NCBI RefSeq assembly: GCF_019737615.1
Contig: NZ_JAHKKS010000003.1
Location: forward strand, 224,001-288,000
Length of the DNA: 64,000 nt
DNA from: Sphingobium xanthum
Lineage (GTDB): Bacteria > Pseudomonadota > Alphaproteobacteria > Sphingomonadales > Sphingomonadaceae
Direction: 5' to 3'
In this document: positions 3,653 through 21,739 of the stretch, piece by piece
Layout: the number at the start of each line of letters is the position of its first letter
How positions within the stretch are numbered: position 1 is the stretch's first letter
Position numbers and translations under genes: made by a program
The notes under the pieces: generated by a model
Databases searched by the model: none
The model's input: the letters and a program-made list of their open reading frames with translations, nothing else
Told to the model about the DNA's origin: nothing

Positions 3653-5152
3653 TCACGCATAGCCGAACCGCTCGATCCAGGGTGCGAGGATCGGCATGAC
3701 CGGCTCGAGATATCTGGCATAGGGTTCCCATTGCCGGCGCCCGTCATAAAGGCCCTGGCGCACCTGCGTCGCGCTCGCCGTGGCCACCCCGCGGCGCTGG
3801 GCCGTGCGGTCGAAGCGCTTGAGATCGGCGGTCCAGTCCATTCCGAGGAACCCGCACAGCGCCTGCGTCGCACGATCGAAGTCCGTGACAAGCGACTCAT
3901 AGCGCACCACATGCGTGTTGAGCGGTAGCCGCTCGACGCACTGCTCGGTTAGCCGCATCAGCGCATCATAGTGCCGCGCCGTGCTGGTGAGGTCGGAATA
4001 GTCGTAGGTCGCGGCGGTCATCGCGAAATTGGTATGATAGCAGCTCCAGACGATCTCGCGCGGGTCACGCCGCATCAGTAGCACGCGCGCCTCGGGGAAC
4101 AGCCGTGCGATGATCGGCAGGCGCATGCCCTTGAGCGGGTCCATGTCGACGAACATGCTTCCGCCCGGTGCGGACACGCTCTGCATGACCATCGACCAAT
4201 AGGCATCGCGATAAGGGCGGGCACCGGACTGATCGAGCGCACGCAGCACTGCTAGGCCGTCCTCGGGCAGCAGGAAGCGCTCGTCCGCATGCATGAGCGT
4301 CGGACGCTCCTCCAACGCCACGATGCCGTCCGCGCTGGCGAGGATATTCTCGACGAGCGTGGTGCCCGAGCGCGGATAGCCAGTGAGGAAGACATGGCGA
4401 TCGAAGGATGGTTGCGCATCGGCCGGGAGCGCCCAGTCCGTCACGTCCTCATCGCGCAGGCTTCGGTCGATCTGCTCGATCAGCGCGATCTGCGCCGGCG
4501 TCTTGTCGCGGAAGCGCCGCTCGAACAGCGTCCGGAACAGCCGCTTGGAGGCGCTATAGGCCGCGAAGGCACCGTCGTAATCGCCAAGCTGCTCCAGCAT
4601 GTCGCCGAGCACGCTCAGCGCCGTCACACGCGGCGGCCCTTCCTCGCGATTGCCGGCCAGTGCGCGCTCCAGCCGGGCGCGCGCATGCTCGGCCTGCCTT
4701 TGCTCGACGGCCGATTGCCCGATCGCGGCGGCGGCGACCAGATTGCCCGGATCGAGCGCGAGCGCCCGCTCGGCCTGCGCCCGTCCCTCCTCATGCTCGC
4801 CGCGCACGACCGTGATCGCGCTCAGCCCGGCCCAGGCCTCGGCCTGCCGGGGATCGAGCTCCGCCGCGCGCGCATAGCAGGTCCGCGCATTGTCGAAGGA
4901 CGCACCGGCCGAAAGCGTGAACGCCTTCTGCAGCCAGGCATCGGCATGGTTCGGATAGGCCTCGATCACCGCATCGCAAGCGAGCACAGCATCGCGCAGC
5001 CGCCCGGCCTCGCGATAAAGGGTCGCCAGCACGAGTCGCGCCTCGACGTCACCCGGCGTCTGGCGCAGGAGCTGCTCCAGGAGCGCGGTCGCTCCCGGAA
5101 CATCCTGTGCCGCCAGCGCATCGGCGATCGCATTGTCGAGGGATGACTGCAT
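3653..5152 (-). CDS. TPR-containing sulfotransferase
   Basis: 499 aa from the ATG at 5152, which has AAGGAG six bases upstream; an upstream in-frame ATG at 5188 lacks such a site. Residues 1-~210 are tetratricopeptide repeats. The C-terminal half is a PAPS-dependent sulfotransferase: FLTGYPRSGTTLVENILAS (residues ~255-273) is the phosphosulfate loop and LLMRRDPREIVWSCY the 3-prime-phosphate site. It would transfer sulfate from PAPS to a hydroxyl of an unknown acceptor, perhaps a protein held by the TPRs. It lies 32 bases downstream of clpB with no terminator between, and upstream of a second sulfotransferase-like gene. Confidence 0.88.
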   Translation of the reverse strand: MQSSLDNAIADALAAQDVPGATALLEQLLRQTPGDVEARLVLATLYREAGRLRDAVLACDAVIEAYPNHADAWLQKAFTLSAGASFDNARTCYARAAELDPRQAEAWAGLSAITVVRGEHEEGRAQAERALALDPGNLVAAAAIGQSAVEQRQAEHARARLERALAGNREEGPPRVTALSVLGDMLEQLGDYDGAFAAYSASKRLFRTLFERRFRDKTPAQIALIEQIDRSLRDEDVTDWALPADAQPSFDRHVFLTGYPRSGTTLVENILASADGIVALEERPTLMHADERFLLPEDGLAVLRALDQSGARPYRDAYWSMVMQSVSAPGGSMFVDMDPLKGMRLPIIARLFPEARVLLMRRDPREIVWSCYHTNFAMTAATYDYSDLTSTARHYDALMRLTEQCVERLPLNTHVVRYESLVTDFDRATQALCGFLGMDWTADLKRFDRTAQRRGVATASATQVRQGLYDGRRQWEPYARYLEPVMPILAPWIERFGYA

Positions 5153-5184
5153 CGCTCCTTCCCTCAACGGCACGCAAAGCAGCG

Positions 5185-7761
5185 TCAAGCGGAGATTTTG
5201 AGGCCTCCGTCGCCCTCGTCGATATGCACGACCGTCCCGTCCGGTACCTCGCCGCGCAGGATGAGATCGGCCAGCGGATCCTGCAGATAGCGCTGCACCG
5301 CCCGCTTGAGTGGCCGCGCCCCATAGACCGGATCATAGCCGACCCGGCCCAGCCAGGCGCGCGCGGCATCGGTCAGGTCCAGCGTCACCTTGCGGTCCTT
5401 GAGCAGCTTGCTCACCCGCCCGACCTGAATGTCCACGATCGGCGCCATATGCGCGGCGCCCAGCCGATGGAACAGGATCACCTCGTCGAGACGATTGAGG
5501 AACTCCGGCCGGAAATGCGCCCGGACCAGCTCCATCACCTGATCCTCGACCTTCTCGACCGGCTCGTCATCGGCCAGCCCCGTCAGGAACTGGCTGCCGA
5601 TGTTCGAGGTCAGCACGATGATCGTGTTGGTGAAGTCGACCGTGCGGCCCTGCCCGTCGGTTAGGCGCCCGTCGTCGAGTACCTGGAGCAGGATGTTGAA
5701 CACATCGCCATGTGCCTTCTCCACCTCGTCGAACAGCACGACCTGATAGGGCCGCCGCCGCACTGCCTCGGTCAGCACGCCGCCTTCCTCATAGCCGACA
5801 TAGCCCGGAGGCGCGCCGATCAGCCGCGCGACCGAGTGCTTCTCCATGAATTCGCTCATGTCGATGCGCACCATCGCGTTGTCGTCGTCGAACAGGAAGC
5901 CGGCGAGCGCCTTGGTCAGCTCGGTCTTGCCGACGCCCGTGGGGCCTAGGAACAGGAACGAGCCGAGCGGCCGGTTCGGGTCCTGCAGGCCCGCACGCGA
6001 GCGGCGCACGGCGGTCGAGACGGCCTTAACCGCATCGGCCTGCCCGATGACGCGCTTGCCCAGCATCTCTTCCATGGCAAGCAGCTTCTCGCGCTCGCCT
6101 TCCATCATCTTATCGACCGGAATGCCGGTCCAGCGCGACACGACCGAGGCAATGTCCTCGCTGGTCACTTCCTCGCGCAGCATCGCGCCCTCGGCCGCAG
6201 TCGCGGCTTCGGCCAGCTGCTTTTCCAGCTGCGGGATCGTGCCATATTGCAGCTCGCCCGCTTTCGCGAGATCGCCGGTGCGCTGCGCCTGATCCAGCGC
6301 CACGCGCGCGGCGTCCAACTGCTCCTTGAGCCGGCTCTCGCCCGCGATCTTGTCCTTCTCCGCCTGCCAGCGCGTGGTCAGCTCGGCCGATTGCTGCTCC
6401 AGATTGGCGAGGTCCGCTTCCAGTGCGTGGAGACGGTCCTTACTCGCCTGATCGCTCTCCTTCTTCAGCGCCTCCCGCTCGATCTTGAGCTGGATGATGC
6501 GCCGATCGAGATTTTCGATCTCCTCGGGCTTGGACTCGACTTCCATGCGCAGGCGCGAGGCGGCCTCGTCCATGAGGTCGATCGCCTTGTCCGGCAGGAA
6601 ACGGTCGGTGATGTAGCGATTGGAAAGCGTCGCGGCCGAGACCAAGGCGCCGTCCGTGATCCGCACGCCGTGGTGCAGCTCATATTTCTCCTTGAGCCCG
6701 CGCAGGATCGAGATCGTGTCCTCCACCGTCGGCTCACCCACGAACACCGGCTGGAAGCGCCGCTGGAGCGCGGGGTCCTTCTCGACATGCTTGCGATATT
6801 CATCGAGCGTGGTCGCGCCGATGCAGTGCAACTCGCCGCGCGCAAGGGCAGGCTTGAGCAGGTTGGAGGCGTCCATCGCGCCTTCGCTCTTCCCCGCGCC
6901 GATCAGCGTGTGCATCTCGTCGATGAAGAGCACGATCTGGCCTTCGCCGGCCTTCACCTCGTCAAGCACGCCTTTGAGGCGCTCCTCGAACTCGCCGCGA
7001 TATTTGGCGCCCGCGATCAGGCTGCCCATGTCGAGCGCCATCAGGGTGCGGTCCTTCAGCGTATCCGGCACGTCGCCATTGGTGATGCGCAGCGCGAGAC
7101 CCTCGGCGATCGCGGTCTTGCCGACACCGGGTTCACCGATCAGCACCGGATTGTTCTTGGTGCGCCGGGCGAGGATCTGGATGGTGCGGCGAATTTCCTC
7201 GTCGCGGCCGATCACCGGATCGAGCTTGCCGTCGCGCGCCGCCTCGGTGAGGTCGCGCGCGAACTTCTTGAGCGCATCATAGCGATCCTCGGCCGACGCC
7301 GTGTCGGCGGTCTTGCCCTTGCGCAGCTCGTTGATCGCGGCGTTCAGCGCCTCGGGCTTGAGGCCCGCCGCCGCCAGCGCCTTGCCGGCCGCCGTCGTCG
7401 AGGAGAGCGCCAGCGCCAGCAACAGGCGCTCGACGGTCACGTAAGAGTCGCCCGCCTTCTGCGCGACCTGCTCGGCCTGATCCAGCACGCGCACCGCATC
7501 ATTGTCGAGGCCCGGCGTCTGCTGCGCGCCGCTGCCCGAGACGGAGGGCACCTTGGCCAGTGCCGCATCGGTTTCGCGCAGCGCGGTCGCCGCGTGGCCG
7601 CCAGCCGCCTTGATGAGGCCGCTCGCCATGCCCTGCTCATCCTCGAGCAAGGCCTTCAGCAGATGTTCCGGCGCGATCCGCTGGTGATTCATCCGGATCG
7701 CCACGGTCTGGGCGCTCTGGAGGAAACCCTTGGCGCGGTCGGTGAATTTTTCGAGGTTCAT
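5185..7761 (-). CDS. clpB: ATP-dependent disaggregase ClpB
   Basis: 858 aa from the ATG at 7761, preceded by GGGGAGA; this start gives the usual [19 protein letters not shown]-terminus. Order: N-domain (1-~145), AAA1 with [13 protein letters not shown], coiled-coil middle domain ([30 protein letters not shown] region), AAA2 with [15 protein letters not shown], and the C-terminal ClpB region. Cytoplasmic hexamer that pulls apart aggregated proteins with DnaK. A heat-shock-type promoter sits immediately upstream. Length and all motifs are normal. Confidence 0.98.
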
Positions 7762-7992: not shown

Positions 7993-10161
7993 CTACCCCC
8001 GCACCCGGAAGTGACCGACAAGGGAATCCAGCTTGCTGCTGTTGGTGCAGATCATGCTCGCCGCGGCCGTGGCTTCTTCCGCCATCGCGGCATTCTGCTG
8101 CACGGCGTTGTCCATGTCGTGGATGACGCCGTTGATCTGGCCGATCTCGTCGGCTTGCTTGCTGATCGTGCCGGCGATCGTGTGGACCACGCCGTCGATC
8201 TTTCCGACATCCTCGATGATCTGCTGGAGCGCCGTGCTGGTCTTGCGGACGAGATCGACGCTGGTGGTGATCTGACCGGTGGACTCGGTGACGAGCGTGC
8301 GCACCGAATCGGATGCTTCCCCGGCACGCTTGGCCAGCGCACGGACTTCCTGCGCGACGATGGCGAAGCCGGCACCGGCCTGACCGGCGCGTGCCGCCTC
8401 GACACCGGCATTGAGCGCCAGCATGTTGGTCTGGAAGGCGATCGCATCGATCGCCACTACGATGTTCATGATCTCTCGCGCCGAATTTTCAAGCTGCGAC
8501 ATGGCGGCGATCGTGTCGGCCATGATCACGCGCGATCCGTCCGCGACGGCGCGCGCCGAGCGCACACTGTTGGCGGCGAGGCCAGTCCCGTCGGAGGATT
8601 GCTGGATCTCGCTGGTCAGCCGCTCGATCGCACCGGCCGTGAGGTTGAGGCTGTTGGCCTGACGCTCCGTGCGCTCGGCCAGGCTCTCGGCGGCCGAAAC
8701 GACCGACATCGAGCCCGAATTGATCGTACCGGACGAATTGACGATCGTCCCGATCAGCCCTTCGAGCGACTCCATCGCCTCGTTGAAATGCACGCGGATC
8801 TGGTCGCTCGCTCCATCGAAGGGCGTGTCGATCCGGAAGGTCAGATTGCCGGTGGAGAGCGCGGCCATGCCGGCACCCATCTGCTCGACGACAAGCGCCT
8901 GCTGCTCGGCATGCTCGCGCGCGAGCTCGGCTTCCTGCTCGTGCCGGTCGCGCTCGCGCATCTGCACCTGATGGCGCATGTCGATGATCTCGCGCACCAG
9001 CTGCGCGAAGGCACCCGCGCCGCGCACGACGATATCGTCTTCCTGCGCCGATGCGCCGACCGCGCGCACCATGCGGCGGGCCTGCCCCAGTTTCTGGAGG
9101 ATGGAGCGCGACAGGAGGAAGCCGATGAGCGCGCTGATGAAGACTGTCGGCGCCAGGGTCAGCACGATGAGGTCATGACCTTGCGAAGCGATCTCGGTGA
9201 GGTCGAGCTTGCGCTGGAAAACCACCATCGCCATGCCGTCCGTCGCGCTGTCCAGCGAGGTCGTGGCGCCGGCAAGATCGCCCGCGGCGAAACCCTGCGC
9301 AGCCTTCTCTGCGTCCCCGCGTACGGTCGCGTCGGTGAGGCGGGGCAGGAGGGTGTCGAGACTGCCGGACACGCCGGTGATGGCCTCCGGGGTCGGCGTT
9401 GCGCCGAGCGAATGGGCGGCGAGCTGCGCGGCGCGAAGCTCCTCCAGCATCGCGGCCTCGCCCTGATCGAATGCGGACTGGAGCTCGTTGAACTCCGCAT
9501 ATTTATGGGCACTGTAGACGCCCGCCGCGAGCGTGAGTGACAGGATCGCCATGCAGCAGAAGCCGAGCTGCGCCTGAAGCGGAACCCGGTTCGTCATTTG
9601 GTCCGCACGCGGCGCGGCCAGCATGCGCTCGACGATCGGCACGCGGCGGAAGACATGATTGAACACGACGGCGCCGATATGGACGGCGAGCAATGCGATC
9701 ATCGCATAGGCCAGCCACTTGTGCCATTCGCCGATGACGACGCCCTGCTCGTTCGTCAGCACCAGCAGCTTGGGGAGCGTCACGGCGTGGAACAAGGTGA
9801 CGTCGTCACCGCGCGACCAGGCGACGATCATGCCGATGATCGGCTGCGCGGCGAGCGTGCCCATCAGCAGGAGATGCACGAGCACCGCTGATGCTTTTTG
9901 CCAGAACGGCATGCCCTCCTCGCTCTTTGGCGCGCGCTTCACCGCGAACAGGCCGAAACGGGCGAGGATGAGCAGCAGCACCAATGTCCCGCACTGGCGA
10001 TGCAGGTCGAGAACGATCTTGCCGAACTCAAGCGACTTGAGACTGTGCAGGACGAGGATCAGGCCGAACTGGCCCAGCACCAGCAGCGCGAAGCTCCAGT
10101 GGATGAAGCGCAGCACGCGCGGATAGCGCGCAACCTCGTGCGATGGGCTGGTCCTGCTCAT
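7993..10161 (-). CDS. Cytochrome b561-methyl-accepting chemotaxis protein fusion
   Basis: 722 aa. Residues 1-~175 are a bacterial cytochrome b561: four membrane helices with the conserved histidines in FIHW (H21), LHRQ (H54) and GEWHKWLAYAMIALLAVHI (H147, H161), expected to hold two b hemes. A fifth helix (~195-217), a periplasmic helical region (~218-330) and a sixth helix (~331-352) follow, then a linker and an MCP signalling domain with hairpin tip IAFQTNMLALNAGVEAARAG. The C-terminus (HFRVRG) lacks a CheR-docking pentapeptide. Four bases downstream of a cupredoxin gene and in one operon with a di-heme peroxidase, it is probably a redox/energy-taxis receptor; the signal sensed is inference. 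Confidence 0.88.
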   Translation of the reverse strand: MSRTSPSHEVARYPRVLRFIHWSFALLVLGQFGLILVLHSLKSLEFGKIVLDLHRQCGTLVLLLILARFGLFAVKRAPKSEEGMPFWQKASAVLVHLLLMGTLAAQPIIGMIVAWSRGDDVTLFHAVTLPKLLVLTNEQGVVIGEWHKWLAYAMIALLAVHIGAVVFNHVFRRVPIVERMLAAPRADQMTNRVPLQAQLGFCCMAILSLTLAAGVYSAHKYAEFNELQSAFDQGEAAMLEELRAAQLAAHSLGATPTPEAITGVSGSLDTLLPRLTDATVRGDAEKAAQGFAAGDLAGATTSLDSATDGMAMVVFQRKLDLTEIASQGHDLIVLTLAPTVFISALIGFLLSRSILQKLGQARRMVRAVGASAQEDDIVVRGAGAFAQLVREIIDMRHQVQMRERDRHEQEAELAREHAEQQALVVEQMGAGMAALSTGNLTFRIDTPFDGASDQIRVHFNEAMESLEGLIGTIVNSSGTINSGSMSVVSAAESLAERTERQANSLNLTAGAIERLTSEIQQSSDGTGLAANSVRSARAVADGSRVIMADTIAAMSQLENSAREIMNIVVAIDAIAFQTNMLALNAGVEAARAGQAGAGFAIVAQEVRALAKRAGEASDSVRTLVTESTGQITTSVDLVRKTSTALQQIIEDVGKIDGVVHTIAGTISKQADEIGQINGVIHDMDNAVQQNAAMAEEATAAASMICTNSSKLDSLVGHFRVRG

Positions 10162-10165
10162 GGGA

Positions 10166-10486
10166 TCACTTGACCGTCACGGTCATCTTCATCTTGGGAT
10201 GAATGCCGCACATGACGCCATAGACGCCGGGTTTCAGGAACGGCGCCTTGAAGGCGACGCCCGGGGCCTGCAGGCCGCTGTTCAGGTTGACGCCATTGCC
10301 GGTCACCAGAATGTTGTGGGACGTCGTGTCGCTGTTGTTGAAGCTGACGACGGTGCCCTTGTCGATGGACAGGGCGCCCGTGTTGAACGCCATGCCCTTC
10401 TGATCGACGGCGACGATGCCGGCGGCCCAGGCAGCGCTCGCGGAGAGCGTGACGACGGCAGCGGTGGCGATGAGTGTCTTGCGCAT
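10166..10486 (-). CDS. Periplasmic cupredoxin (type I copper protein)
   Basis: 106 aa with a clear signal peptide (MRKTLIATAAVVTLSASAAWA). The mature part is a small plastocyanin/amicyanin-like beta-barrel with copper ligands His57 (SHNIL), Cys93, His96 and Met99 in the motif CGIHPKM. It would carry single electrons in the periplasm. The gene begins 20 bases after the di-heme peroxidase gene and ends 4 bases before the b561-chemoreceptor gene, so the three are almost certainly one transcript. An electron shuttle to the peroxidase or the b561 domain is the natural inference. Confidence 0.9.
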   Translation of the reverse strand: MRKTLIATAAVVTLSASAAWAAGIVAVDQKGMAFNTGALSIDKGTVVSFNNSDTTSHNILVTGNGVNLNSGLQAPGVAFKAPFLKPGVYGVMCGIHPKMKMTVTVK

Positions 10487-10506: not shown

Positions 10507-11601
10507 TCAGCGGGGGAGGATCGGCATGTCGACCGGAGCATCGTCGCTGCTCAGGGTCTTCATGAAGGCGACGATGTCGGCCTTTTCCTGATCGGTGAGT
10601 TTGAGCGATTTCATTTCCGCGTCCAGCGAGGGACGGCGCACGAAGCTCTCATCATAATGATCCACGACGCCTTCGAGCGTCGCGATCGAGCCGTCGTGCA
10701 TGTAAGGGCCACGCTCGGCGATGTTGCGTAAGGTCGGCGTCTTGAATGCGCGCTCGAGCTGCACGATGCCGGGCAGGACGGCAGCGCGGCCCATATCGTT
10801 GCCGGGCAGGCCGATGTCGTGGAAGCCGTCGTCGGCGAAGCGCCAGCCGGCATGGCAGACGGCGCAATTCCCTTTGGTATTGAACAGCACGAAGCCGCGC
10901 TTGGCGGAGTCGGAGATGGCGGCGTCATTGCCCTTGATCCAGCGATCGAACGGCGCTTCGCCCGAGACGACCGTGCGTTCATATGCGGCGATCGCCTTGG
11001 CCGCGGTCTCCAGCGAGAGCGGCTCGTGCGGGAAGACGCGGGCCATTTCCTCGCGATAGAACTGCACGTTGTTGAGCGTCTCCAGCACCTTCTTGGGCGA
11101 ACCGGCCATTTCGGCCTGCGCCATGATCGGGCCGAGCGCCTGCTCTTCGAGCGTGTTGGCGCGGCCGTCCCAGAACAGAGGTTCCATCCATGCGGCGTTG
11201 AGGATCGTCGGCGTGTGACGGCCGAGAATACCGCCCTTGTCGCCCACCGCGGTCGGCAGGCCATCCTGCCAGCCGAGCGACGGATTGTGGCAGGTCGCGC
11301 AGGAAATCGCGCCCGAGCCGGACAGGCGCGGGTCGAAGAACAGCATCTTGCCGAGCTTCACCTTGTCCGCCGTCGTGGGGTTGTGCTCCGGCGAGGGGAT
11401 GTCGCTCGGGCGCGCATAGCCCGCCATCATCGTCTTGAGCGCGGTCGGATCGACGCCCAGGATGCCGGCGATCGAGACCGGCGCGGTCTGCGCGACGGCG
11501 CCCGCCGTTGCCGCGAACAGAGCACCGGCGAGCGCGATCGATTGCACCAAGCCGAGTCCGGCGCCGGACGTGCGCCGCGTCTTCGATGTTGCGTCAGTCA
11601 T
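10507..11601 (-). CDS. Di-heme cytochrome c peroxidase family protein
   Basis: 364 aa with an N-terminal hydrophobic export signal (IALAGALFAATAGAVAQ) after a 20-residue polar lead. Two c-heme sites are present, CATCH (residues 101-105) and CAVCH (246-250), and the distal Met of YMHDGS (301), as in bacterial cytochrome c peroxidases and related MauG-type enzymes. It would reduce hydrogen peroxide in the periplasm using electrons from a small carrier, plausibly the cupredoxin encoded next. First gene of a tight operon that ends in a b561-chemoreceptor. MauG-like oxidation of a protein is the alternative activity. Confidence 0.9.
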   Translation of the reverse strand: MTDATSKTRRTSGAGLGLVQSIALAGALFAATAGAVAQTAPVSIAGILGVDPTALKTMMAGYARPSDIPSPEHNPTTADKVKLGKMLFFDPRLSGSGAISCATCHNPSLGWQDGLPTAVGDKGGILGRHTPTILNAAWMEPLFWDGRANTLEEQALGPIMAQAEMAGSPKKVLETLNNVQFYREEMARVFPHEPLSLETAAKAIAAYERTVVSGEAPFDRWIKGNDAAISDSAKRGFVLFNTKGNCAVCHAGWRFADDGFHDIGLPGNDMGRAAVLPGIVQLERAFKTPTLRNIAERGPYMHDGSIATLEGVVDHYDESFVRRPSLDAEMKSLKLTDQEKADIVAFMKTLSSDDAPVDMPILPR

Positions 11602-11807
11602 CCCGTGCTTCCCGTTGAATGGATGTATCCGCTCAGTGATACCGGTTCGGCACTAAGATTGAGTAAACCACGATCGGCGCGGGATCGGGCGGGCGCCGGA
11701 TCGACTCTTCACAAAATAAATGTTTGCTTTTCAGCGCGCTTACCATTCGTAAAATCTTCGGCGTTATTGAAGCCCCCCAACGGAAGGTCCGAATGAGGGG
11801 GAAACCC
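11602..11807. promoter_or_regulatory. Divergent intergenic region, redox operon and chemoreceptor gene
   Basis: About 200 bases separate the divergent starts at 11601 (minus) and 11808 (plus). The centre (11700-11775) is AT-richer than its surroundings and must hold both promoters. I found no FNR/Anr box, CtrA box or clear -35/-10 pair here. Confidence 0.4.
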
Positions 11808-13667
11808 ATGAAGAAACGTGTTGGTATAGCGGGCAAGATGCTGTTCGCGCTTGCGATCCTCTTGTCGACGATCGCGGTGACCGGCGGCATCGGCGTGCTC
11901 AAGCTCGGCGAGGTCAACCAGCTGTCGCTGGAGATGCGCACGCGCTGGCTCCCCGCCACGCAGCTGCTCGGCGACATCCACGCCTATACGTCGCAATATC
12001 GCATCGCGCAGAGCACGCTCGTGACCGCGCCCGGCGAAGGCCAGAAGCGCAAGGCGCAGATCCAGCTCAAGAATCAGCAGCAGGCGATCTCGAGCGCGCT
12101 CGACGACTATAGCCCCCTCATCCAGAATCAGGAGCAGCGCGCGCTGTTCGATCAGCTCCGCAAGGACTGGACGCACTATACCGGCCTGACCAATCGCCTC
12201 GCCGACCTGGTCGCCGCGGGCGATCCGGCCGCGGCCGAGCTGTTCGACGGCGAATCGCTCGACATGTTCTACACGATCGAGGACGCGATCCTTCAGCTGA
12301 TCGACCTCAACGTGAAGGGCGGCGAGGCCAATGCTTCCACGTCGACCCAGATCTACGCCAAGAGCCGCACGCTGATGATCGGTGCGGTCAGTGTCGGCAT
12401 CCTGTTCAGCGTCCTGCTCTCGGTCCTGATGATGCGCGGCATTGCCCGTCCGATCGCCCGCATGAGCGACAATGTGAAGCGGCTCGTCGCCGGCGATCTC
12501 GACGTCGAGATCCCGGGCCTCAAGCGCAACGACGAACTGGGTAGCCTGGCGCGTGCCATGGACAGCTTCAAGGAGCTGTTCGCCGCCGACCAGCAGCGCG
12601 CTCATGAGGAAGCCCGTCGCGCCGCCGAGACGAAGGCGACGATCGAAGCCATTGGCGAGGGCCTCGCGGCAATGGCCGGCGGTCGCCTCACGCACAATGT
12701 GAGCGAGGATATCGATGGCCCGCTCGCCCAGCTGCACACGGACTATAACGCCGCCGTCGACAAGCTGCGCCAGACCCTGCGCCAGATCGTCGAGGGCACG
12801 GACGTGATCTGCAACGGCACGGCGGAAATCGCTCAGGCCTCGTCGGATCTCTCGCTGCGCACCGAGAAGCAGGCGGACACGCTGGCGCACGTCTCGCGCA
12901 CGCTCGGCGAGTTCAACGAATCGGTTAAGGTCGCGGCCGACAATGCCCGTCAGACGAGCGAGAAGCTGGTCGGAACGCGCCGTTCGGCCGAGCAGTGTGA
13001 TGCCACCGCGAAGCAGACGGTCGAGGCCATGCGCAACATCGGCGCTTCCTCACGCGAGATGAACGAGATCATCTCGACGATCGACGGCCTCGCTTTCCAG
13101 ACCAACCTGCTGGCGCTGAACGCCGGCGTCGAGGCGGCGCGTGCCGGTTCGGCGGGCGCGGGCTTCGCGGTCGTCGCGACCGAAGTGCGTCTTCTGGCGC
13201 AGCGCTCGTCCGATGCCGCGAGCCGCATTCGCGATCTGGTCGTCAAGTCGACCGCGCAGATCAGCGAAGGCGTGATCCTCGTCGAGCATTCGGGTGAGGA
13301 ACTGCGGCACATCGTGGAAGAAGTGATCGAAGTGGCCGCTCTGGCCGACGAGATCGCCAATGCCTCCGCGATCCAGGCCGCCGGCCTGCAGGAGATCACC
13401 GAAATGGTCTCCGACATGGATCTCGTGACGCAGCAGAACGCCGCGATGGTCGAGGAAAGCACGGCAAGCTCGCGCAACCTCTCCAACGAGACCGAGCGCC
13501 TCGTCGATCAGGTCAAGTTCTTCGATCTTGGCCGTCGCCCCAAGTCGGGTGGTCACTCGGCGCCCGCTTATGTGCCGGCCGGCCGGCCTGCCGCCCCCGC
13601 TTCCCTGCCGGCCTTTTCGGGCAACCTCGCCCTCGCGGCCGAGCAGGAAGACTGGAAAGAATTCTGA
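11808..13667 (+). CDS. Methyl-accepting chemotaxis protein with periplasmic four-helix sensor
   Basis: 619 aa from the ATG at 11808, which follows GAGGGGG and directly starts the membrane anchor (MKKRVGIAGKMLFALAILLSTIAV); an earlier ATG at 11793 is possible. TM1 ~8-31, periplasmic four-helix-bundle-like sensor ~32-185, TM2 ~186-208, HAMP, then a long cytoplasmic coiled coil with tip IDGLAFQTNLLALNAGVEAARAG. It ends in DWKEF, matching the xWxxF pentapeptide that tethers CheR/CheB. The ligand is unknown. Divergent to the redox operon and upstream of the che operon. Confidence 0.93.
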   Translation: MKKRVGIAGKMLFALAILLSTIAVTGGIGVLKLGEVNQLSLEMRTRWLPATQLLGDIHAYTSQYRIAQSTLVTAPGEGQKRKAQIQLKNQQQAISSALDDYSPLIQNQEQRALFDQLRKDWTHYTGLTNRLADLVAAGDPAAAELFDGESLDMFYTIEDAILQLIDLNVKGGEANASTSTQIYAKSRTLMIGAVSVGILFSVLLSVLMMRGIARPIARMSDNVKRLVAGDLDVEIPGLKRNDELGSLARAMDSFKELFAADQQRAHEEARRAAETKATIEAIGEGLAAMAGGRLTHNVSEDIDGPLAQLHTDYNAAVDKLRQTLRQIVEGTDVICNGTAEIAQASSDLSLRTEKQADTLAHVSRTLGEFNESVKVAADNARQTSEKLVGTRRSAEQCDATAKQTVEAMRNIGASSREMNEIISTIDGLAFQTNLLALNAGVEAARAGSAGAGFAVVATEVRLLAQRSSDAASRIRDLVVKSTAQISEGVILVEHSGEELRHIVEEVIEVAALADEIANASAIQAAGLQEITEMVSDMDLVTQQNAAMVEESTASSRNLSNETERLVDQVKFFDLGRRPKSGGHSAPAYVPAGRPAAPASLPAFSGNLALAAEQEDWKEF

Positions 13668-14327: not shown

Positions 14328-15776
14328 ATGGACCCGTTCGCAAAGTCTGAAGAGGAAGACGATCTCATGCTGGAATGGTTCGAGAAAAAGGCGCCGATCC
14401 GTAGCAAGTTCGACGCCTTGCTGATCGCGCATCTCGTGATTGCGGGCGTGGTCGGCGGATCGATCATTGCCGCTTCGATAATGGGTTATGGCGCCGCCGT
14501 CCTCGGCGGGATCGTCGCGACCGGCGCGGTGCTGACCTTGATCGTCATGACCTCCGCCAAGCGCATGATCTGCGACCCCTATGTGGAGACCGTCCTGCGC
14601 ATGGAGGCCCTCGCCGCAGGCAATCTCGCCGAGCGCTTCGACTTCAGCGATCACGAGGATTGCGTCGGCCGAATGATCAAGGCGATGGAAGTGTTTCGCG
14701 CGAATGGCGGTACGCTGCGTCAGTCGGGCCACGATCTGGAAGCCGTGATCGGCCATCTGCAACAGGGCCTGGGCAAGCTTGCCGAGGGCGATCTGACCTA
14801 CCGCCTGAAGGCCGATTTCCCGGCGGAATATTCTCAGCTCAAGACCAGCTTCAATACCGCGGTGCAGGAACTTGGCGACGTGATCTCCAGCCTCACCGAC
14901 GTGGCATCGACCGTCCAGTCGGGATCTTCGGAGATTCGCGACGCCTCGAACGATCTTGCGCGCCGCTCCGAGGAACAGGCCTCCGCTCTGCAGCAGGCGG
15001 CCGGCGCCATGAAGGACGTGACGGCGGTCGTGCAGGAAACGGCCTCGAACGCCGCCAATGTGCGCGCAACGATCGCGGAGACCCAGGGCGAAGCCGATGA
15101 AGGCGGTCAGGTCGTCCAGCGTGCCGTGACGGCGATGGGTGCGATCGAGAAGTCGTCGGAGCAGATCGGCCAGATCATCAACGTGATCGACGGCATTGCC
15201 TTCCAGACCAACCTGCTGGCGCTCAATGCCGGCGTGGAAGCCGCGCGCGCCGGCGATGCCGGCAAGGGCTTCGCGGTCGTCGCCAACGAAGTGCGCGCCC
15301 TGGCGCAGCGCTCCGCCGATGCCGCCAAGGACATCAAGGAACTGATCACGGCCAGCACGCAGCAGGTCAGCGGCGGCGTTGCGCTCGTCGCCGAGACCGG
15401 CACCTGCCTTGCCAAGATCGTTCAGCGCATCGCCAATATCGGTGAGCGCATGAGCTCGATCAACGACTCGTCGCTCTCGCAGGCCAGCAGCCTGCACCAG
15501 ATCAACGCGGCGGTTTCCGAGATGGATCGCATGACGCAGCAGAACGCCGCGATGGTCGAACAATGCACAGCCGCGGCGCACAGCCTCGCCGGCAATGCCA
15601 CGGACCTCACGAAGATCGTCGCGCGGTTCAAGGCCAGCGGCAGCAGTGGCGGGTTCGCCGCGCCGCGGTCCGCACCGCCCGCGCCGCGCCGCGCGGCCGT
15701 GTCCGCCCCGGTGGTCCGCGGCAATCTCGCCGTGAAGGCCGAGGTGCGGGACGAAGAGGACTGGGCGGAATTCTGA
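14328..15776 (+). CDS. Methyl-accepting chemotaxis protein with no periplasmic domain
   Basis: 482 aa. Two adjacent membrane helices (~30-52 and ~54-75) leave almost no periplasmic loop, so any signal must come from the membrane or cytoplasm. HAMP-like segments follow (PYVETVLRMEALAAGNLAERF and a second near residue 150), then the signalling tip IDGIAFQTNLLALNAGVEAARAG. The C-terminus DEEDWAEF ends in a CheR-docking xWxxF motif. It is the first gene of the operon continuing with the STAS protein and cheA; energy or internal sensing is plausible. Confidence 0.92.
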   Translation: MDPFAKSEEEDDLMLEWFEKKAPIRSKFDALLIAHLVIAGVVGGSIIAASIMGYGAAVLGGIVATGAVLTLIVMTSAKRMICDPYVETVLRMEALAAGNLAERFDFSDHEDCVGRMIKAMEVFRANGGTLRQSGHDLEAVIGHLQQGLGKLAEGDLTYRLKADFPAEYSQLKTSFNTAVQELGDVISSLTDVASTVQSGSSEIRDASNDLARRSEEQASALQQAAGAMKDVTAVVQETASNAANVRATIAETQGEADEGGQVVQRAVTAMGAIEKSSEQIGQIINVIDGIAFQTNLLALNAGVEAARAGDAGKGFAVVANEVRALAQRSADAAKDIKELITASTQQVSGGVALVAETGTCLAKIVQRIANIGERMSSINDSSLSQASSLHQINAAVSEMDRMTQQNAAMVEQCTAAAHSLAGNATDLTKIVARFKASGSSGGFAAPRSAPPAPRRAAVSAPVVRGNLAVKAEVRDEEDWAEF

Positions 15777-16081: not shown

Positions 16082-18397
16082 GTGACCAACGAAGAAATTC
16101 AGGGGATTTTCTTTCTCGAGTGCGAGGAAGCCCTGACCGCCGCAGAGGCGGGCCTCGCTGCATGCCGCGAAGGCCGGCATGACGACGACACCGTCAACGG
16201 CGTCTTCCGCGCGGTCCACTCCATCAAGGGTGGCGCGGGCGCCTTCTGCTTCACTGCCTTGCAGGCATTCACGCACGGCTTCGAGACGACCTTGTCGGAC
16301 GTCCGCGACGGCATCCTGCCGATCGAGGACAGCCTCGTCGATCTGCTGCTGCGTGCGCTCGATATGCTGAACGACCATTTCCTGGCCGTGCGCGACGGCG
16401 CGCCGCTTCCGGACGACGCCGCGCTGCTCGCCGAGCTGGCAGCGGTTCTTGTCCAGGCTCCGGACGTTGCCGAGGAAACGCCGGCGGCTCCCGCCGCCGA
16501 GCCGGTCGTGGCTGAGCCCGTCGTGGCCGAGACCCCGGCCGCCGGGGACGACCTGGATTTCGACCTGGACAGCATGCTGGCGGGCATGGCCCTCGACGAT
16601 GTCGATCTTGAGGCGGCCGCTGCCGCGCCGGAAGCGGCGCAGGAGACGGTCCCGGGCTGGACATTGCTCATTCGTCCGCTGGACGCGGCCATGGCCAATG
16701 GCGGCGAACCCATATTGCTTCTGCGCGAGCTTGAGCGTCTGGGCGGCCAGTGCATCCACTGCGATGTGCAGGCGGTGCCGCATGTCGATGAGATCGACAC
16801 CACCGAGTCCAGCCTTGCCTGGACTTTCCTGTTCCCCGAAGCGCTCGATCGCAAGAAGGTCGAGGAAGTGTTCGACTTCGTGGGCGACGACTTCCAGCTG
16901 AGCTGGGACGTGCCGGTGCCCGCCGGCTTCTCGGCCGAAGCGGCATCGACGATCGATGTCGCCGAGACGATCGAAACGCCAGCGCCCGCGCCGGTCGCGG
17001 AGGCAGCACCGGTCGTCGCCATTGCGCCGGTGGCTGAACCGGTTGCTGAGGTCAAGCCGACAGCGGCGGCGCCTGCGCCTGCGCCTGCCCCCGAACCGGT
17101 CGTGACGCCCGTGCCCGCCGCCCAGGCAGAGCCCGTCGCGGCGCAACCCGCGCCCGCGCCTGCCGCGGCCGCCGAAGCTGCCACCGGCGACAAGGGCGCG
17201 GCTCCTGCGGCGGCAACGGGTGCGTCTCAGTCGATCCGCATCGATCTGTTCAAGCTCGACCGCCTCATCGATACCGTCGGCGAGCTGGTGATCGCGCAGG
17301 CAATGATGGCCCAGCGCCTCGCCTGGGCCGGCACGGCCGCAGTGGAAGAACTGGCGACGCTCGAAAGCCTGACGCGCGACATTCAGGAAAGCGCCATGGC
17401 GATCCGCGCGCAGCCGATCGGCTCGGTGTTCAGCCGCGTGCCGAGGATGCTGCGCGAACTGCAGACCTCCACCGGCAAGCGCGTGCGGCTCGAAATGCAG
17501 GGCGAAGCCACCGAACTCGACAAGACGGTGATCGAGCGGCTCGGCGAGCCCCTGACACACCTCATCCGCAACGCCGTCGATCACGGCCTCGAGACGCCCG
17601 AGGAGCGCATTGCCGCCGGCAAGCCCGGCGAGGGCGTCCTCACGCTCTCCGCCGAACAGCGCAGCGGCCGGATCCTCATCAAGGTGAGCGACGACGGCAA
17701 GGGCATCGATCGCAAGCGCGTGCTGGCCAAGGCGGTCGAGCGCGGGCTGGTCTCGCCCGAGGCGCAGATGAGCGACGAGGATATCGACAATCTGATCTTC
17801 GCGCCCGGCTTCTCGACGGCGGCGACCATTTCCAACATTTCCGGCCGCGGCGTCGGCATGGATGTGGTCCGCCAGAATGTGAAGGATCTGGGCGGCCGCA
17901 TCAGCATTGAATCGCATCCCGGCAAGGGCAGCTGCTTCACGCTCGCGCTGCCGCTGACATTGGCGATCTCGGATGGCATGATCGTGTCGGTCGGCGACCA
18001 GACGCTGGTCGTGCCGCTGGCCCATGTGGTCGAGAGCTTGCGTCCGCGCCCTGAGGAAGTGGCCAGCATGGGCGCCTCGCGTCAGATGCTGAACGTGCGC
18101 GGCAAGTTCATTCCGATCCTGCCACTCCTGGAAAATGTCGGCGCGATCGGCGCGCAGACCGATCCGACGGAGGCGGTGCTCGTCATCGTCGATACCGAAT
18201 CCGCCGGCCAGGCCGCCTTGCTGGTCGACAATATCCGCGATCAGCGCCAGTTCGTGATCAAGAGCCTGGATACGCATTATCGCCCGGTCAACGGCGTTGC
18301 CGGCGCCACGATCCTCGGTGACGGGCGCGTCGCGCTCATCCTCGATGTCGACTCGCTGGTGGCTGATGCCGTCGCGACCCGGCGTCTTGCCGCATGA
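16082..18397 (+). CDS. cheA: Chemotaxis histidine kinase CheA
   Basis: 771 aa from a GTG start at 16082, preceded by GAGG. HPt domain with phospho-accepting His46 in FRAVHSIKGGAGAF; a P2-like CheY/CheB-binding region at ~200-285; a ~120-residue Ala/Pro-rich linker; P3 dimerisation helices from ~380; P4 kinase with N box NAVDHGLE (~497), G1 DDGKGID and G2 GRGVGMDVV; and a CheW-like P5 at the C-terminus. Autophosphorylates in complex with chemoreceptors and CheW, passing phosphate to CheY and CheB. cheR overlaps its stop by 4 bases. Confidence 0.97.
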   Translation: MTNEEIQGIFFLECEEALTAAEAGLAACREGRHDDDTVNGVFRAVHSIKGGAGAFCFTALQAFTHGFETTLSDVRDGILPIEDSLVDLLLRALDMLNDHFLAVRDGAPLPDDAALLAELAAVLVQAPDVAEETPAAPAAEPVVAEPVVAETPAAGDDLDFDLDSMLAGMALDDVDLEAAAAAPEAAQETVPGWTLLIRPLDAAMANGGEPILLLRELERLGGQCIHCDVQAVPHVDEIDTTESSLAWTFLFPEALDRKKVEEVFDFVGDDFQLSWDVPVPAGFSAEAASTIDVAETIETPAPAPVAEAAPVVAIAPVAEPVAEVKPTAAAPAPAPAPEPVVTPVPAAQAEPVAAQPAPAPAAAAEAATGDKGAAPAAATGASQSIRIDLFKLDRLIDTVGELVIAQAMMAQRLAWAGTAAVEELATLESLTRDIQESAMAIRAQPIGSVFSRVPRMLRELQTSTGKRVRLEMQGEATELDKTVIERLGEPLTHLIRNAVDHGLETPEERIAAGKPGEGVLTLSAEQRSGRILIKVSDDGKGIDRKRVLAKAVERGLVSPEAQMSDEDIDNLIFAPGFSTAATISNISGRGVGMDVVRQNVKDLGGRISIESHPGKGSCFTLALPLTLAISDGMIVSVGDQTLVVPLAHVVESLRPRPEEVASMGASRQMLNVRGKFIPILPLLENVGAIGAQTDPTEAVLVIVDTESAGQAALLVDNIRDQRQFVIKSLDTHYRPVNGVAGATILGDGRVALILDVDSLVADAVATRRLAA

Positions 18398-19257
18398 ACG
18401 CGCCCGCATTCCAGAGTCCGCCCGGCGTCAGTTCGCAAATCTACGGCGAAGCTGATTTCGAGGCGATCCGCGCGATCATCCACCGCGAGGCGGGCATCGC
18501 GCTCGAGCGCAGCAAGGCCATGCTGGTCTATTCCCGGCTGGCCCCGCTGGTGCGCTCATCCAACAGCGCGACCTTTGCGAACTATATCAAGCTGATCGAG
18601 TCCGATGCGACGGAGCGGCACCAGACCGTCTGCGCACTCACGACCAACCACACCTTCTTCTATCGCGAAGCGCATCATTTCGATCATCTCCGCGATGTTT
18701 CGCGGCCGATGCTGATGTCGCAGATCGCCCATGGCGATCCGGTGCGCATCTGGTCGGCCGGCAGCTCCAGCGGCGAGGAAGGCTATTCGATCCTGATGAC
18801 CTTGCTCGGCCCGGACAAGGCCGATGCGCGGCGGATCTTCAACAGCGATTTCCTGATGCTCGGCACCGATCTGGCCGATCATGCCGTCGCAGGCGCGCGC
18901 GCCGCGCGCTATGCGGCCAATGCGGTCGATCCGGTGCCCGAGGCGCTGCGCAACTTGTGGACCGAGCGCGACGGCAATGCCGTCCAGATCAAGCAGGAAG
19001 TGCGCGATCTTGCAAAATTCCTGCCGCTGAACCTGCTCGGACCGTGGCCGATGAAGCGGCAGTTCGACATCATCTTCTGCCGCAATGTGATGATCTATTT
19101 CGATCAGCCGACCAAGGAGCGCCTCGTGGCGCGCTTCGCCGAGGCCCTGCGGCCCGGCGGTTTTCTCTACATCGGCCATAGCGAGCGCGTGACCGGACAA
19201 GCGAGCGCGATGCTCGAGCCGGCCGGCAACACGATTTACGTCAGGGGGACCAAATGA
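18394..19257 (+). CDS. cheR: Chemoreceptor methyltransferase CheR
   Basis: 287 aa, starting at an ATGA overlap with cheA and ending in an ATGA overlap with cheB, so translation is coupled. N-terminal helical domain, then the SAM-binding fold with RIWSAGSSSGEEGYSI and FDIIFCRNVMIYFD, both diagnostic of CheR. Uses S-adenosylmethionine to methylate glutamates on chemoreceptors in adaptation. Two chemoreceptors here end in xWxxF motifs that could dock it. Confidence 0.97.
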   Translation: MNAPAFQSPPGVSSQIYGEADFEAIRAIIHREAGIALERSKAMLVYSRLAPLVRSSNSATFANYIKLIESDATERHQTVCALTTNHTFFYREAHHFDHLRDVSRPMLMSQIAHGDPVRIWSAGSSSGEEGYSILMTLLGPDKADARRIFNSDFLMLGTDLADHAVAGARAARYAANAVDPVPEALRNLWTERDGNAVQIKQEVRDLAKFLPLNLLGPWPMKRQFDIIFCRNVMIYFDQPTKERLVARFAEALRPGGFLYIGHSERVTGQASAMLEPAGNTIYVRGTK

Positions 19258-20309
19258 GCATTCGCGTCCTGATCGTCGATGATTCAGCGACGATGCGCGC
19301 CGTCCTCACGCAATTGCTGGGGGGAGAGCGAGACATCGAGGTGGTTGGGACCGCCGCGGATGCCATGGAAGCTCGCGTCAAGATCAAGGAACTCGATCCG
19401 GACGTCGTGACCCTGGACATCGAGATGCCCGGCATGAGCGGCCTCGAGTTCCTCGAGAAGCTGATGCGCCTGCGCCCGACGCCGGTGGTGATCGTTTCGG
19501 GCCTGACGCAGAAGGGCGCCGACGCCACCGCGCAGGCGCTCGCGATCGGTGCCATAGACTGCTACGCAAAGCCTGACGGCAGCGCGGGCGCCTTGCTGAA
19601 GGGTGACAATGGCGAGCTCGCCAGCCGGATCCGGGTCGCGGCTTCCAGCCGCCGTCGCACCCCGACCGCGCCGCTCTCTGCCGCGCCGAGCGTTGCCGCG
19701 CTGAGCGTTGCCGCACCGAGCGCGGTTCGCCACGGCAAGACGGACCTCATCGCCATCGGTTCCTCCACCGGCGGCGTGGAAGCGTTGCAAACGCTGCTGA
19801 CCGAATTCCCGGAAGATTGCCCGCCGACGGTGATCGTCCAGCACATCAACGCCAATTTCGCCGGCGCCGTCGCACGCCGCCTGGATGGCCTCTGCCGTCC
19901 GCGCGTCCAGCTTGCCGACGCGGACCTGCCGCTGCGGCAGGGCCATATCTATTTCGCGCCGACCAATGAACTGCATTTCCGCGTCACGGGCGGCAATCCC
20001 GGCTTCGTCGCCAAATTGCGCCAGGGCGATCCGATTTCCGGTCATCGGCCGAGCGTCGATGCCCTGTTCCAATCCGTTGCAGACGTGGCGGGCGCTCGCG
20101 CCGTCGGCATCCTGCTGACCGGCATGGGCAGCGATGGCGCGAACGGCCTGCTCGCCATGCATCGCGCCGGCGCCTTCACGATCGCGCAAGACCAGGCGAG
20201 TTGCACGGTGTTCGGCATGCCGCGCGCGGCGATCGCGCTCGGCGCGGCTTCGCAAGTGCTGCCGCTCACGCAGATCGCCTCGCGCGTGCTGTCCATGGTG
20301 ACCGCATGA
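19254..20309 (+). CDS. cheB: Chemotaxis response regulator methylesterase CheB
   Basis: 351 aa. Receiver domain with phospho-acceptor Asp55 (LDIEMPGMSG), a short linker of Ala/Pro/Ser, and a complete C-terminal esterase: IGSSTGGVEA (catalytic Ser171), VQHINANF (His197) and GMGSDG (Asp294). Removes methyl groups from, and deamidates, chemoreceptors when phosphorylated by CheA. Overlaps cheR and cheD by 4 bases each. It is the catalytically intact partner of the degenerate CheB-like protein at 21740. Confidence 0.97.
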   Translation: MSIRVLIVDDSATMRAVLTQLLGGERDIEVVGTAADAMEARVKIKELDPDVVTLDIEMPGMSGLEFLEKLMRLRPTPVVIVSGLTQKGADATAQALAIGAIDCYAKPDGSAGALLKGDNGELASRIRVAASSRRRTPTAPLSAAPSVAALSVAAPSAVRHGKTDLIAIGSSTGGVEALQTLLTEFPEDCPPTVIVQHINANFAGAVARRLDGLCRPRVQLADADLPLRQGHIYFAPTNELHFRVTGGNPGFVAKLRQGDPISGHRPSVDALFQSVADVAGARAVGILLTGMGSDGANGLLAMHRAGAFTIAQDQASCTVFGMPRAAIALGAASQVLPLTQIASRVLSMVTA

Positions 20310-20857
20310 CCATTCAGCGCCCCGTCAGCGACGGCCTGAAGCGGCTCAGCGTCATGCAGGGCAATGTCGAGATCAGCCGCGCCACAGACGTCATGATGAC
20401 GACGGTGCTCGGCAGCTGCGTGGCATGCTGCATGTTCGACCCGGTCATGCGCGTCGGCGGCATGAACCACTTCCTGCTTTCCGAGCCGGGACCGGCCGAA
20501 GGCTCGGTCAAGGTCGACGAGCATTATGGCGTGTATCTGATGGAAGTGCTGATCAACGGCATGTTGAGCCAGGGCGTACGCAAGCAGAGCATCAAGGCGC
20601 ACCTCTATGGCGGCGCCAATCTGCACGCGAACATGCAGAAGATCGGCTCGGCCAATGCGCAGTTCGCCCAGGACTTCCTCGCGCGGGAAAATATTCAGCT
20701 ATTTCATATGGATCTTGGCGGCACGACGGCGCGGCGCGTGGACTTCATTCCCGCGCAAGGCCGGGTCCGTTGCCGGGTTCTCAAGGAACAGGTCGAAGTC
20801 GCGCGTCCGGTGCTCCAGCGGCCTGCGACTGATCGTGGCGATGTTGAACTTTTTTAA
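20306..20857 (+). CDS. cheD: Chemoreceptor glutamine deamidase CheD
   Basis: 183 aa from the ATG at 20306 within the ATGA overlap with cheB. The active-site motif VLGSCVACCMFDP (Cys38), GGMNH (His55) and Thr near residue 32 give the Thr-Cys-His triad of CheD. It converts specific glutamines of chemoreceptors to glutamate so that CheR can methylate them. Followed 23 bases later by cheY; TTAACCAT near its stop resembles a CtrA half-site. Confidence 0.95.
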   Translation: MTIQRPVSDGLKRLSVMQGNVEISRATDVMMTTVLGSCVACCMFDPVMRVGGMNHFLLSEPGPAEGSVKVDEHYGVYLMEVLINGMLSQGVRKQSIKAHLYGGANLHANMQKIGSANAQFAQDFLARENIQLFHMDLGGTTARRVDFIPAQGRVRCRVLKEQVEVARPVLQRPATDRGDVELF

Positions 20858-20880
20858 CCATTTCCGGGTAGGGGTTAGGC

Positions 20881-21243
20881 ATGATCAAAGTTTTCACAGT
20901 CGATGACAGCGCCAGCATGCGTGCGCTTCTGCTTCACGCGCTTACGGGGCACGGGTTCGCGGTCGATCAGGCCGAGCACGGGCTGGCCGCGCTCGAGTGG
21001 CTGAAGGACAATGAGCCCGATGTCATCATCACCGACATCAACATGCCGAAGCTGGACGGCTTCGGCCTGATCGAGAAACTTCGGGCCGACGAGCGCCATC
21101 GCGACCGTCCGATCCTCGTGCTCACAACCGAGAGTTCCGACGAGAAAAAGGCGCGTGCGCGCGCTGCCGGGGCGACGGGCTGGATCGTGAAGCCCTTTGA
21201 CGCGGAAAAGCTGGCGAGCGCCGTGCGGCGCGTCTCCCATTGA
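20881..21243 (+). CDS. cheY: Chemotaxis response regulator CheY
   Basis: 120 aa, a single receiver domain: acidic pocket DD at 8-9, phospho-acceptor Asp52 (ITDINMPKLDGF), switch Thr in VLTTES, and Lys in VKPFD. No output domain, so it is the diffusible messenger that would bind the flagellar motor. Only one CheY is seen and no CheZ. GGTAGGGG precedes the ATG loosely. Confidence 0.95.
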   Translation: MIKVFTVDDSASMRALLLHALTGHGFAVDQAEHGLAALEWLKDNEPDVIITDINMPKLDGFGLIEKLRADERHRDRPILVLTTESSDEKKARARAAGATGWIVKPFDAEKLASAVRRVSH

Positions 21244-21274
21244 ACATCATCACCCCATTGGCCGGAGCAAAGAG

Positions 21275-21715: not shown

Positions 21716-21739
21716 ACCTAGAACGGGGACGCAAAAACA

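Follow-up and report, generated by a model that had tools for sequence, protein, structure and literature searches.

What does a chemoreceptor gain from a cytochrome built into its own polypeptide? The question is raised by a gene in a stretch of 64,000 nucleotides from Sphingobium xanthum (assembly GCF_019737615.1, contig NZ_JAHKKS010000003.1, positions 224,001 to 288,000), here called the window, in which a cytochrome b561 domain precedes the signalling part of a methyl-accepting chemotaxis protein (MCP). The gene follows a di-heme enzyme gene and a cupredoxin gene. The answer preferred here, which we give about an even chance of being right, is that the protein is a transmembrane chemoreceptor for redox state or oxidants, in which electrons pass between the b hemes and its two partners, the di-heme enzyme and the cupredoxin; we infer heme binding, electron path, stimulus, response direction and signalling alike. 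The receptor gene and its parts are as follows.

7993-10161, minus strand: b561-MCP receptor gene, 722 amino acids (single ATG frame, Pfam domains)
9619-10128, minus strand: cytochrome b561 domain, residues 12-181, with His 21, 54, 147 and 161 (Pfam PF01292, 5oc0 alignment)
9103-9579, minus strand: transmembrane helix 5 (TM5), periplasmic helical region and TM6, residues about 195-353 (hydropathy, no Pfam family)
8752-9105, minus strand: HAMP-like linker, residues about 353-470 (read by eye only; Pfam does not detect it)
8107-8568, minus strand: match to the MCP signalling domain, residues 532-685, hairpin tip included (Pfam PF00015)

A sequence-only reading of this stretch had described one uninterrupted 722-residue frame, without stating its strand, that joins a complete N-terminal b561 of four helices and four heme-ligand histidines to two further membrane helices around a periplasmic helical region and to an MCP signalling part, and this layout is borne out throughout. 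The 722 codons of window:7993-10161, on the minus strand, begin with ATG, contain no internal stop and lie wholly within one contig. Pfam Ni_hydr_CYTB (PF01292) matches residues 12-181 with 82.4 bits (E 4.4e-23, cut-off 30.1), and MCPsignal (PF00015) matches residues 532-685 with 125.2 bits (E 3.1e-36, cut-off 34.6). No other Pfam family exceeds its cut-off in the 722-residue protein, no PAS or globin domain is listed up to E 0.1, and a Pfam scan of the middle part, window:8890-9600, matched no family. Hydropathy displays the four b561 helices followed by two more, with peaks near residues 202-206 and 340-349, and the stretch of about 113 residues between the fifth and sixth helices is taken as periplasmic. 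In the topology derived from this, b561 is placed ahead of an ordinary two-helix receptor and the cytoplasmic end of its helix 4 would run into TM5. The G+C content of third codon positions is even along the gene, 0.83-0.89 across seven successive blocks of 100 codons, and thus there is no compositional seam. ATG codons at positions 180, 189 and 204 are, by eye, without an obvious ribosome-binding site.

A search of PDB sequences with residues 1-423 gave Escherichia coli CybB (5oc0) as the sole meaningful relative (E 5.8e-8), the remaining 11 matches listed having E values of 0.5 or more. In the 5oc0 alignment H21, H54, H147 and H161 of the receptor pair with CybB H13, H45, H137 and H151. The first three of these CybB residues we take to be heme ligands. 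The fourth, H151, is described as a ligand of heme 1 (PMC11869295). All four receptor histidines, together with H96 (CybB H87), are conserved as His throughout the 39 other b561 sequences used for comparison, a set of 40 rows having been reduced by L039, a copy of the window gene.

The two genes that precede the receptor gene on the same strand are listed in their order along the window.

10166-10486, minus strand: type-1 cupredoxin, 106 amino acids, plastocyanin/amicyanin-like (Pfam Copper-bind 39.0 bits, cut-off 21.2)
10507-11601, minus strand: di-heme enzyme of the cytochrome c peroxidase (CCP)/MauG type, 364 amino acids, with two CXXCH motifs (Pfam CCP_MauG 194.6 bits, cut-off 25.6)

The gene order is therefore di-heme enzyme, cupredoxin and b561-MCP receptor, with gaps of 20 bp and 4 bp on a common strand, and the three form an apparent operon that is presumably co-transcribed. 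The cupredoxin has a CGIHPKM copper-ligand loop and, judged by eye, a signal-peptide-like start. Tyr316 of the enzyme is at the MauG axial-ligand position, where it aligns with a Met of cytochrome c peroxidase 2c1u and with the annotated MauG of locus L079; the axial tyrosine is described as conserved among MauGs, with Met or His instead in CCPs (PMC7567364). The enzyme scores 347 bits against the NCBIfam MauG model TIGR03791, below its cut-off of 443.85, and on this basis it is classed from its sequence as MauG-like, not MauG. No methylamine dehydrogenase genes were found among the neighbours scanned between 3.6 and 26 kb of the window.

The enzyme and cupredoxin, and a recurrent link of such enzymes to receptors, are context that the sequence-only reading did not include. 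The link was assayed with an alignment of four enzymes, that of the window and three others, against one genome per species. Of the 499 relatives detected, the 80 best were retained (L089-L168). The counts that follow are biased, because each of the four query enzymes had been known beforehand to have signalling genes next to it. An MCP gene is adjacent on the same strand in 52 of the 80 enzyme loci, 13 of which also have a cupredoxin gene. In 48 of the 52 the MCP gene follows the enzyme gene or its cupredoxin gene within 300 bp, and in four it is found upstream only, within 400 bp. Five further loci have an MCP within 1.5 kb downstream, one has a histidine kinase instead, six are ended by contig edges, and 16 were classed as having none. 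Among these 16, L118 has an MCP by Pfam, which raises the further loci with one within 1.5 kb to six, L095 has a histidine kinase further down, and L126, L135, L137, L151 and L153 belong to the methylamine MauG clade. The verrucomicrobial loci L112 and L130 have a cupredoxin, and no receptor was found there. It should be noted that the MCP test by tblastn is a lower bound, as L118 was missed by tblastn and detected by Pfam. As a background, only six other MCP frames occur in 947,528 bases of the same loci.

Other signalling proteins can occupy the partner slot: a histidine kinase in L158, a GGDEF-EAL protein in L085 and L088, and a HAMP-GGDEF-EAL protein in Ruegeria TM1040 and Tritonibacter mobilis. 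The same enzyme-MCP pair is carried by plasmids of Rhizobium acidisoli and R. ruizarguesonis. Nine plasmid enzyme loci were opened, a count that includes L086, which was left out of the analysis. L080 and L087 have an adjacent MCP, L085 and L088 the GGDEF-EAL proteins already named, and L081 a sensor piece followed by a GGDEF-EAL frame; L079 and L084 are mau clusters, and L082 starts at the edge of its record. Among 396 genomes of the order, the enzyme occurs at E <= 1e-80 in seven besides that of the window, and an MCP match lies alongside in all seven; four of these stretches are identical to L094, L097, L104 and L108, and the MCP match of L178 spans an interrupted frame. Within the genus (94 genomes, E <= 1e-60) the enzyme was found only in the window genome, with one more distant enzyme (47%) besides.

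In a tree of 85 enzymes that of the window falls into a group with eight loci that carry a cupredoxin (93/92, branch not starred). Seven of the eight have an adjacent MCP, and the eighth, L099, is ended by a contig edge at which a sensor resembling the four-helix-bundle (4HB) type begins. The methylamine MauGs fall within the larger clade that also holds this group; it has 40 rows, of which 28 carry a cupredoxin. Their nested position in this cupredoxin-rich clade may hint that MauG arose from such enzymes. Pfam scans of 24 partner-position proteins identified 22 as receptors or as receptor pieces at contig ends, the other two being an exchanger and a cupredoxin, and b561 was found in none of the 24. 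The partner receptors combine a sensor that is 4HB-like, often below the Pfam cut-off, or Cache (L094, L097) with HAMP and MCP domains. Five partner MCPs of the cupredoxin group (L090, L091, L093, L096 and L102) end in a PilZ domain, which suggests an input from cyclic di-GMP. A b561 profile run over the six-frame translations of the 85 loci gave just three matches, each of them partial and located where a Pseudovibrio stretch ends, 5-6 kb from the enzyme; the match to the window itself is not independent, as the 40 profile rows include L039, the copy of the window gene. That b561 might be a separate operon gene in relatives was rejected, since this profile found in the 85 loci no b561 receptor and only these three distant partial matches.

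How might such a receptor work? In the mechanism envisaged, a short cytoplasmic loop would connect a four-helix di-heme b561 to a two-helix receptor with its periplasmic helical domain, HAMP-like linker and MCP hairpin. H2O2 or another oxidant would oxidise the periplasmic di-heme enzyme, and the cupredoxin would pass electrons to this enzyme and exchange them with the periplasm-facing b heme. Both b hemes would then take up a redox state set between the oxidant sink and the membrane quinone pool, and a shift in this state could alter helix packing, to be relayed from b561 helix 4 through TM5 and TM6 to the signalling hairpin and the control of CheA. Since a cupredoxin and a peroxide-type enzyme lie on the periplasmic side, the most economical version has the b hemes act as reporters of how oxidant sink and membrane pool are balanced, a state that the receptor would read. 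The presence of the two genes, and the recurrent link of such enzymes to receptors, give weight to heme redox control of the kinase.

The kinase and its partners are encoded nearby, together with two further receptors.

11724-13667, plus strand: second chemoreceptor (4HB_MCP_1, HAMP, MCPsignal; Pfam), divergent from the enzyme gene
14328-15776, plus strand: third chemoreceptor (HAMP, MCPsignal; Pfam)
16082-18397, plus strand: CheA (Hpt, dimerisation, HATPase and CheW domains; Pfam)
18394-19257, plus strand: CheR (Pfam)
19254-20309, plus strand: CheB (Pfam)
20881-21243, plus strand: CheY-like single receiver (Pfam)
21197-21715, plus strand: CheW (Pfam)
21740-22789, plus strand: second CheB-like protein (Pfam)

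The che cluster, cheA-cheR-cheB-cheY-cheW-cheB at 16082-22789, is about 6-12 kb from the receptor gene, and both CheA and CheW are thus encoded in the genome. The enzyme gene has receptors on both sides, the b561-MCP downstream and the divergent 4HB receptor, which starts 122 bp past the enzyme start codon. Between 3.6 and 26 kb of the window the neighbours are a sulfotransferase, ClpB, the cupredoxin, three MCPs, a TonB-like protein, the che genes, a LuxR-type regulator, a DUF4199 protein and a peptidase M28. The clpB gene lies downstream of the receptor gene, and adjoining it, at window 3653-5188, TPR repeats are followed by a sulfotransferase domain. Among plasmids the best match of clpB, at 81.5%, is to Sphingomonas parapaucimobilis, which makes a sphingomonad host most likely.

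Several findings weigh against the receptor having the role proposed. Its middle region, residues 186-440, scores only 13.8 bits against a profile of the cupredoxin-group partner receptors (best of 20 shuffles, 9.3) and 3.2 bits, within the range of shuffles, against the profile of the other partners. Its signalling domain scores 124-169 bits against three MCPs of its own genome and 153-158 bits against the rhizobial partners, with lower values, 42-106 bits, against the same-strand MCPs of the cupredoxin group. With the middle scoring so low and the signalling domain nearer to MCPs of its own genome, the b561-MCP receptor is, on these sequence comparisons, not a plain ortholog of the usual partner. 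The same two profiles match the neighbouring receptor at 11724 better, with 67.8 and 59.9 bits, and this neighbour could be the true partner. Two of the seven MCPs in the clade of the window enzyme, those of L094 and L097, are of the Cache type and lie upstream. Within the protein, Pfam lists no HAMP domain up to E 0.1, and a single-sequence structure model, with a mean predicted local distance difference test score (pLDDT) of 46.9, supports nothing. N168 and V174 replace H158 and D164 of the CybB quinone site, which are kept by 39 of 39 and 35 of 39 other b561 sequences, respectively. The simplest history would be that an enzyme-cupredoxin pair entered the lineage and the receptor slot was then filled by a new chimera.

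To the same side belongs the rarity of the fusion, which was seen in the window genome only among the samples searched. These samples, of genus, order, class and phylum, overlap, and in the last three at most four candidates were scored per genome. With residues 1-423 as a query, nothing was found apart from the window genome in 94 genomes of the genus (E 1e-25) or in 396 of the order (E 1e-20), and in 385 genomes of the class and 398 of the phylum all matches at E <= 1e-14 end by query residue 250; those with open frames of more than 500 amino acids were all fetched for inspection. With residues 1-412, 55 of 60 other relatives have b561 matches only. Peptide patterns run over contigs of 84,980 species, a method that reaches close relatives only, gave 39 stretches and no relative. 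A plasmid search matched 28 records, with at most 57% of the query among the 20 matches listed. On three Pantoea plasmids (H1-H3) a b561 gene lies beside a TetR/AcrR regulator, and H3 also carries a catalase-family peroxidase. Eleven loci with b561, picked mostly for long frames, gave no match to MCP queries, and two viral scans for more b561 sequences found none.

An alternative that shares most of these observations is that b561 supplies electrons and does not sense, in a chain from quinol through b561 and cupredoxin to the di-heme enzyme; the fusion would only hold this chain at the chemoreceptor array, and the periplasmic domain would sense another ligand. The gene order fits, the cupredoxin is suited as an electron donor, and electron supply may be a real need, as two mau clusters have napG and napH (annotated as ferredoxin-type and quinol dehydrogenase subunits) after the MauG-type gene; the LcoA-BcnA fusions also join b561 to a protein of oxidant defence (PMC9113575). 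However, related operons with no b561 gene nearby evidently manage otherwise, and the quinone-site pair that the receptor has replaced is described from mutagenesis as having a role in quinone binding, although mutants in CybB retain partial activity (PMC11869295). We regard this supply role as unlikely. The CybB comparison also bears on a sensor of the superoxide-oxidase type, in which the heme on the periplasmic side would be reduced by superoxide, as in CybB, and the receptor would report this. The b561 family, CybB as the one meaningful solved relative and the oxidant-handling neighbour gene speak for it. Yet of the CybB superoxide-site residues R30, R35, R38, R108 and K134 (PMC11869295), only R108 is kept, as R117, and the other four align with H39, L44, G47 and G144, by a single pairwise alignment with gaps close by. 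With four of the five Arg/Lys and the H158-D164 pair lost, the receptor b561 is probably not a superoxide oxidase as judged from sequence. A simple superoxide oxidase was set aside on these residues, and we hold a superoxide sensor to be highly improbable. The changes fit a domain that has been freed from quinone catalysis or superoxide capture and could still hold and exchange electrons.

A different use of the enzyme is suggested by MauG, which makes tryptophan tryptophylquinone on methylamine dehydrogenase (PMC7567364). By analogy, the MauG-type enzyme might oxidise a residue of a partner receptor and so leave a covalent oxidant signal, with b561 incidental and the receptor at 11724-13667 a possible substrate. 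Two observations speak for this. In the column of the MauG axial ligand Tyr is present in 85 of 85 enzymes aligned, and among the partners one column of the periplasmic bundle is occupied by Trp in 41 of 42 enzyme-paired receptors without a cupredoxin (the exception, L136, shows the signalling part only) and in eight of the ten with a cupredoxin that have a residue there (12 in total). In generic 4HB controls, of which 30 were fetched, 29 matched and 24 have a residue at the column, Trp is found in 5 of 24. The control set is, however, small and of a single class, and it includes the window's own neighbour receptor (L199). One control with Trp, L205, has a cupredoxin match (41%) alongside and may belong to the same pairing. 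Tyr in 13 of the 24 controls leaves room for a merely structural aromatic. The neighbour receptor itself has Tyr at the column, with a Trp three residues before it, and the periplasmic part of the b561-MCP has no Trp, so that the Trp is a lead on the wider enzyme-receptor pairing and not on the b561-MCP gene. A covalent signal at this locus appears quite unlikely to us. It might finally be supposed that the gene is a recent accidental fusion, or an assembly join, with no selected function, in keeping with its having been found in a single genome only and with a signalling half closer to local MCPs than to the usual partners. That the gene is one open frame in one contig with even third-position composition, has kept four ligands and occupies the slot where related operons carry a receptor argues otherwise, and we consider an accident very unlikely.

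On the reading that we prefer to these alternatives, a transmembrane redox or oxidant chemoreceptor, the redox state of the cell's own envelope may be a cue by which it steers. Redox or energy input to the chemotaxis kinase is described mainly from receptors with flavin adenine dinucleotide (FAD)-PAS, globin or PAS-heme sensors (PMC13401364), and a receptor with an apparently intact two-heme membrane wire would permit a direct test of the coupling of redox state to the kinase. A broader proposal can be made tentatively, and taken as a whole it is somewhat unlikely. MauG-type enzymes in many proteobacteria and some other phyla would be dedicated periplasmic inputs of chemoreceptors, cyclic di-GMP enzymes and histidine kinases, turning H2O2 into an electron-transfer or a covalent signal, with the near-invariant receptor Trp as a possible contact. 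In Sphingobium xanthum the receptor would, besides, have gained a di-heme wire of its own in the membrane, a b561 no longer suited to quinone catalysis, and this would link heme redox state directly to the chemotaxis kinase. If confirmed, the enzyme-receptor pairing would provide a large group of 'cytochrome c peroxidases' with a function and would point to peroxide-directed movement. The receptor is best placed as a variant among heme and redox chemoreceptors, and the wider pairing merits a study of its own.

Comparison with known systems shows how far each part has a precedent. A full-text search of mainly open-access literature found no description of a b561-MCP fusion or of a pairing of MauG-type enzymes with MCPs. 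The statement in the sequence-only reading that no receptor of this layout had been described agrees with this search, and has to be qualified by HtrVIII of Halobacterium salinarum, a precedent in kind. The further statement that b561 proteins are stand-alone carriers is not general: LcoA-BcnA b561-lipocalin fusions of alphaproteobacteria are described (PMC9113575), and the window genome, beyond the window itself, encodes b561 fused to YceI in a frame of 438 codons (L060:2519-3832). L060 is one of the four b561 places in this genome and the one locus of the eleven mentioned above that was scanned by Pfam.

CybB (YceJ, 5oc0) shares with the receptor the b561 fold family, the four heme-ligand histidines and H87; unlike the receptor it has no signalling part, and it differs at H158 and D164 and at four of the five superoxide-site Arg/Lys. 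The LcoA-BcnA proteins likewise carry b561 as an N-terminal fused module, there in oxidant defence, whereas their fusion partner is described as a lipocalin and no receptor (PMC9113575). MauG and its amicyanin resemble the operon in having a CCP_MauG enzyme with an axial Tyr and a cupredoxin gene in the same cluster, and the operon departs from them in a score below the TIGR03791 cut-off and in having chemoreceptors alongside in place of methylamine dehydrogenase genes. Among receptors, Aer, HemAT, Aer2 and DcrH/DcrA also tie a redox or oxygen-binding cofactor to an MCP. Their cofactors are given as FAD-PAS, globin, PAS-heme, hemerythrin or c-type heme, and none in that account is a membrane b-type di-heme (PMC13401364; DcrA from the title of a reference). 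The nearest precedent in kind is HtrVIII, whose six N-terminal membrane helices are compared to the sites at which cytochrome c oxidase binds heme and, as in the receptor described here, are fused to an MCP-like part (PMC13401364). It is, in contrast, archaeal and cytochrome c oxidase-like, and the portion of that source concerned with it mentions no di-heme enzyme or cupredoxin, such as precede the b561-MCP gene in Sphingobium xanthum.

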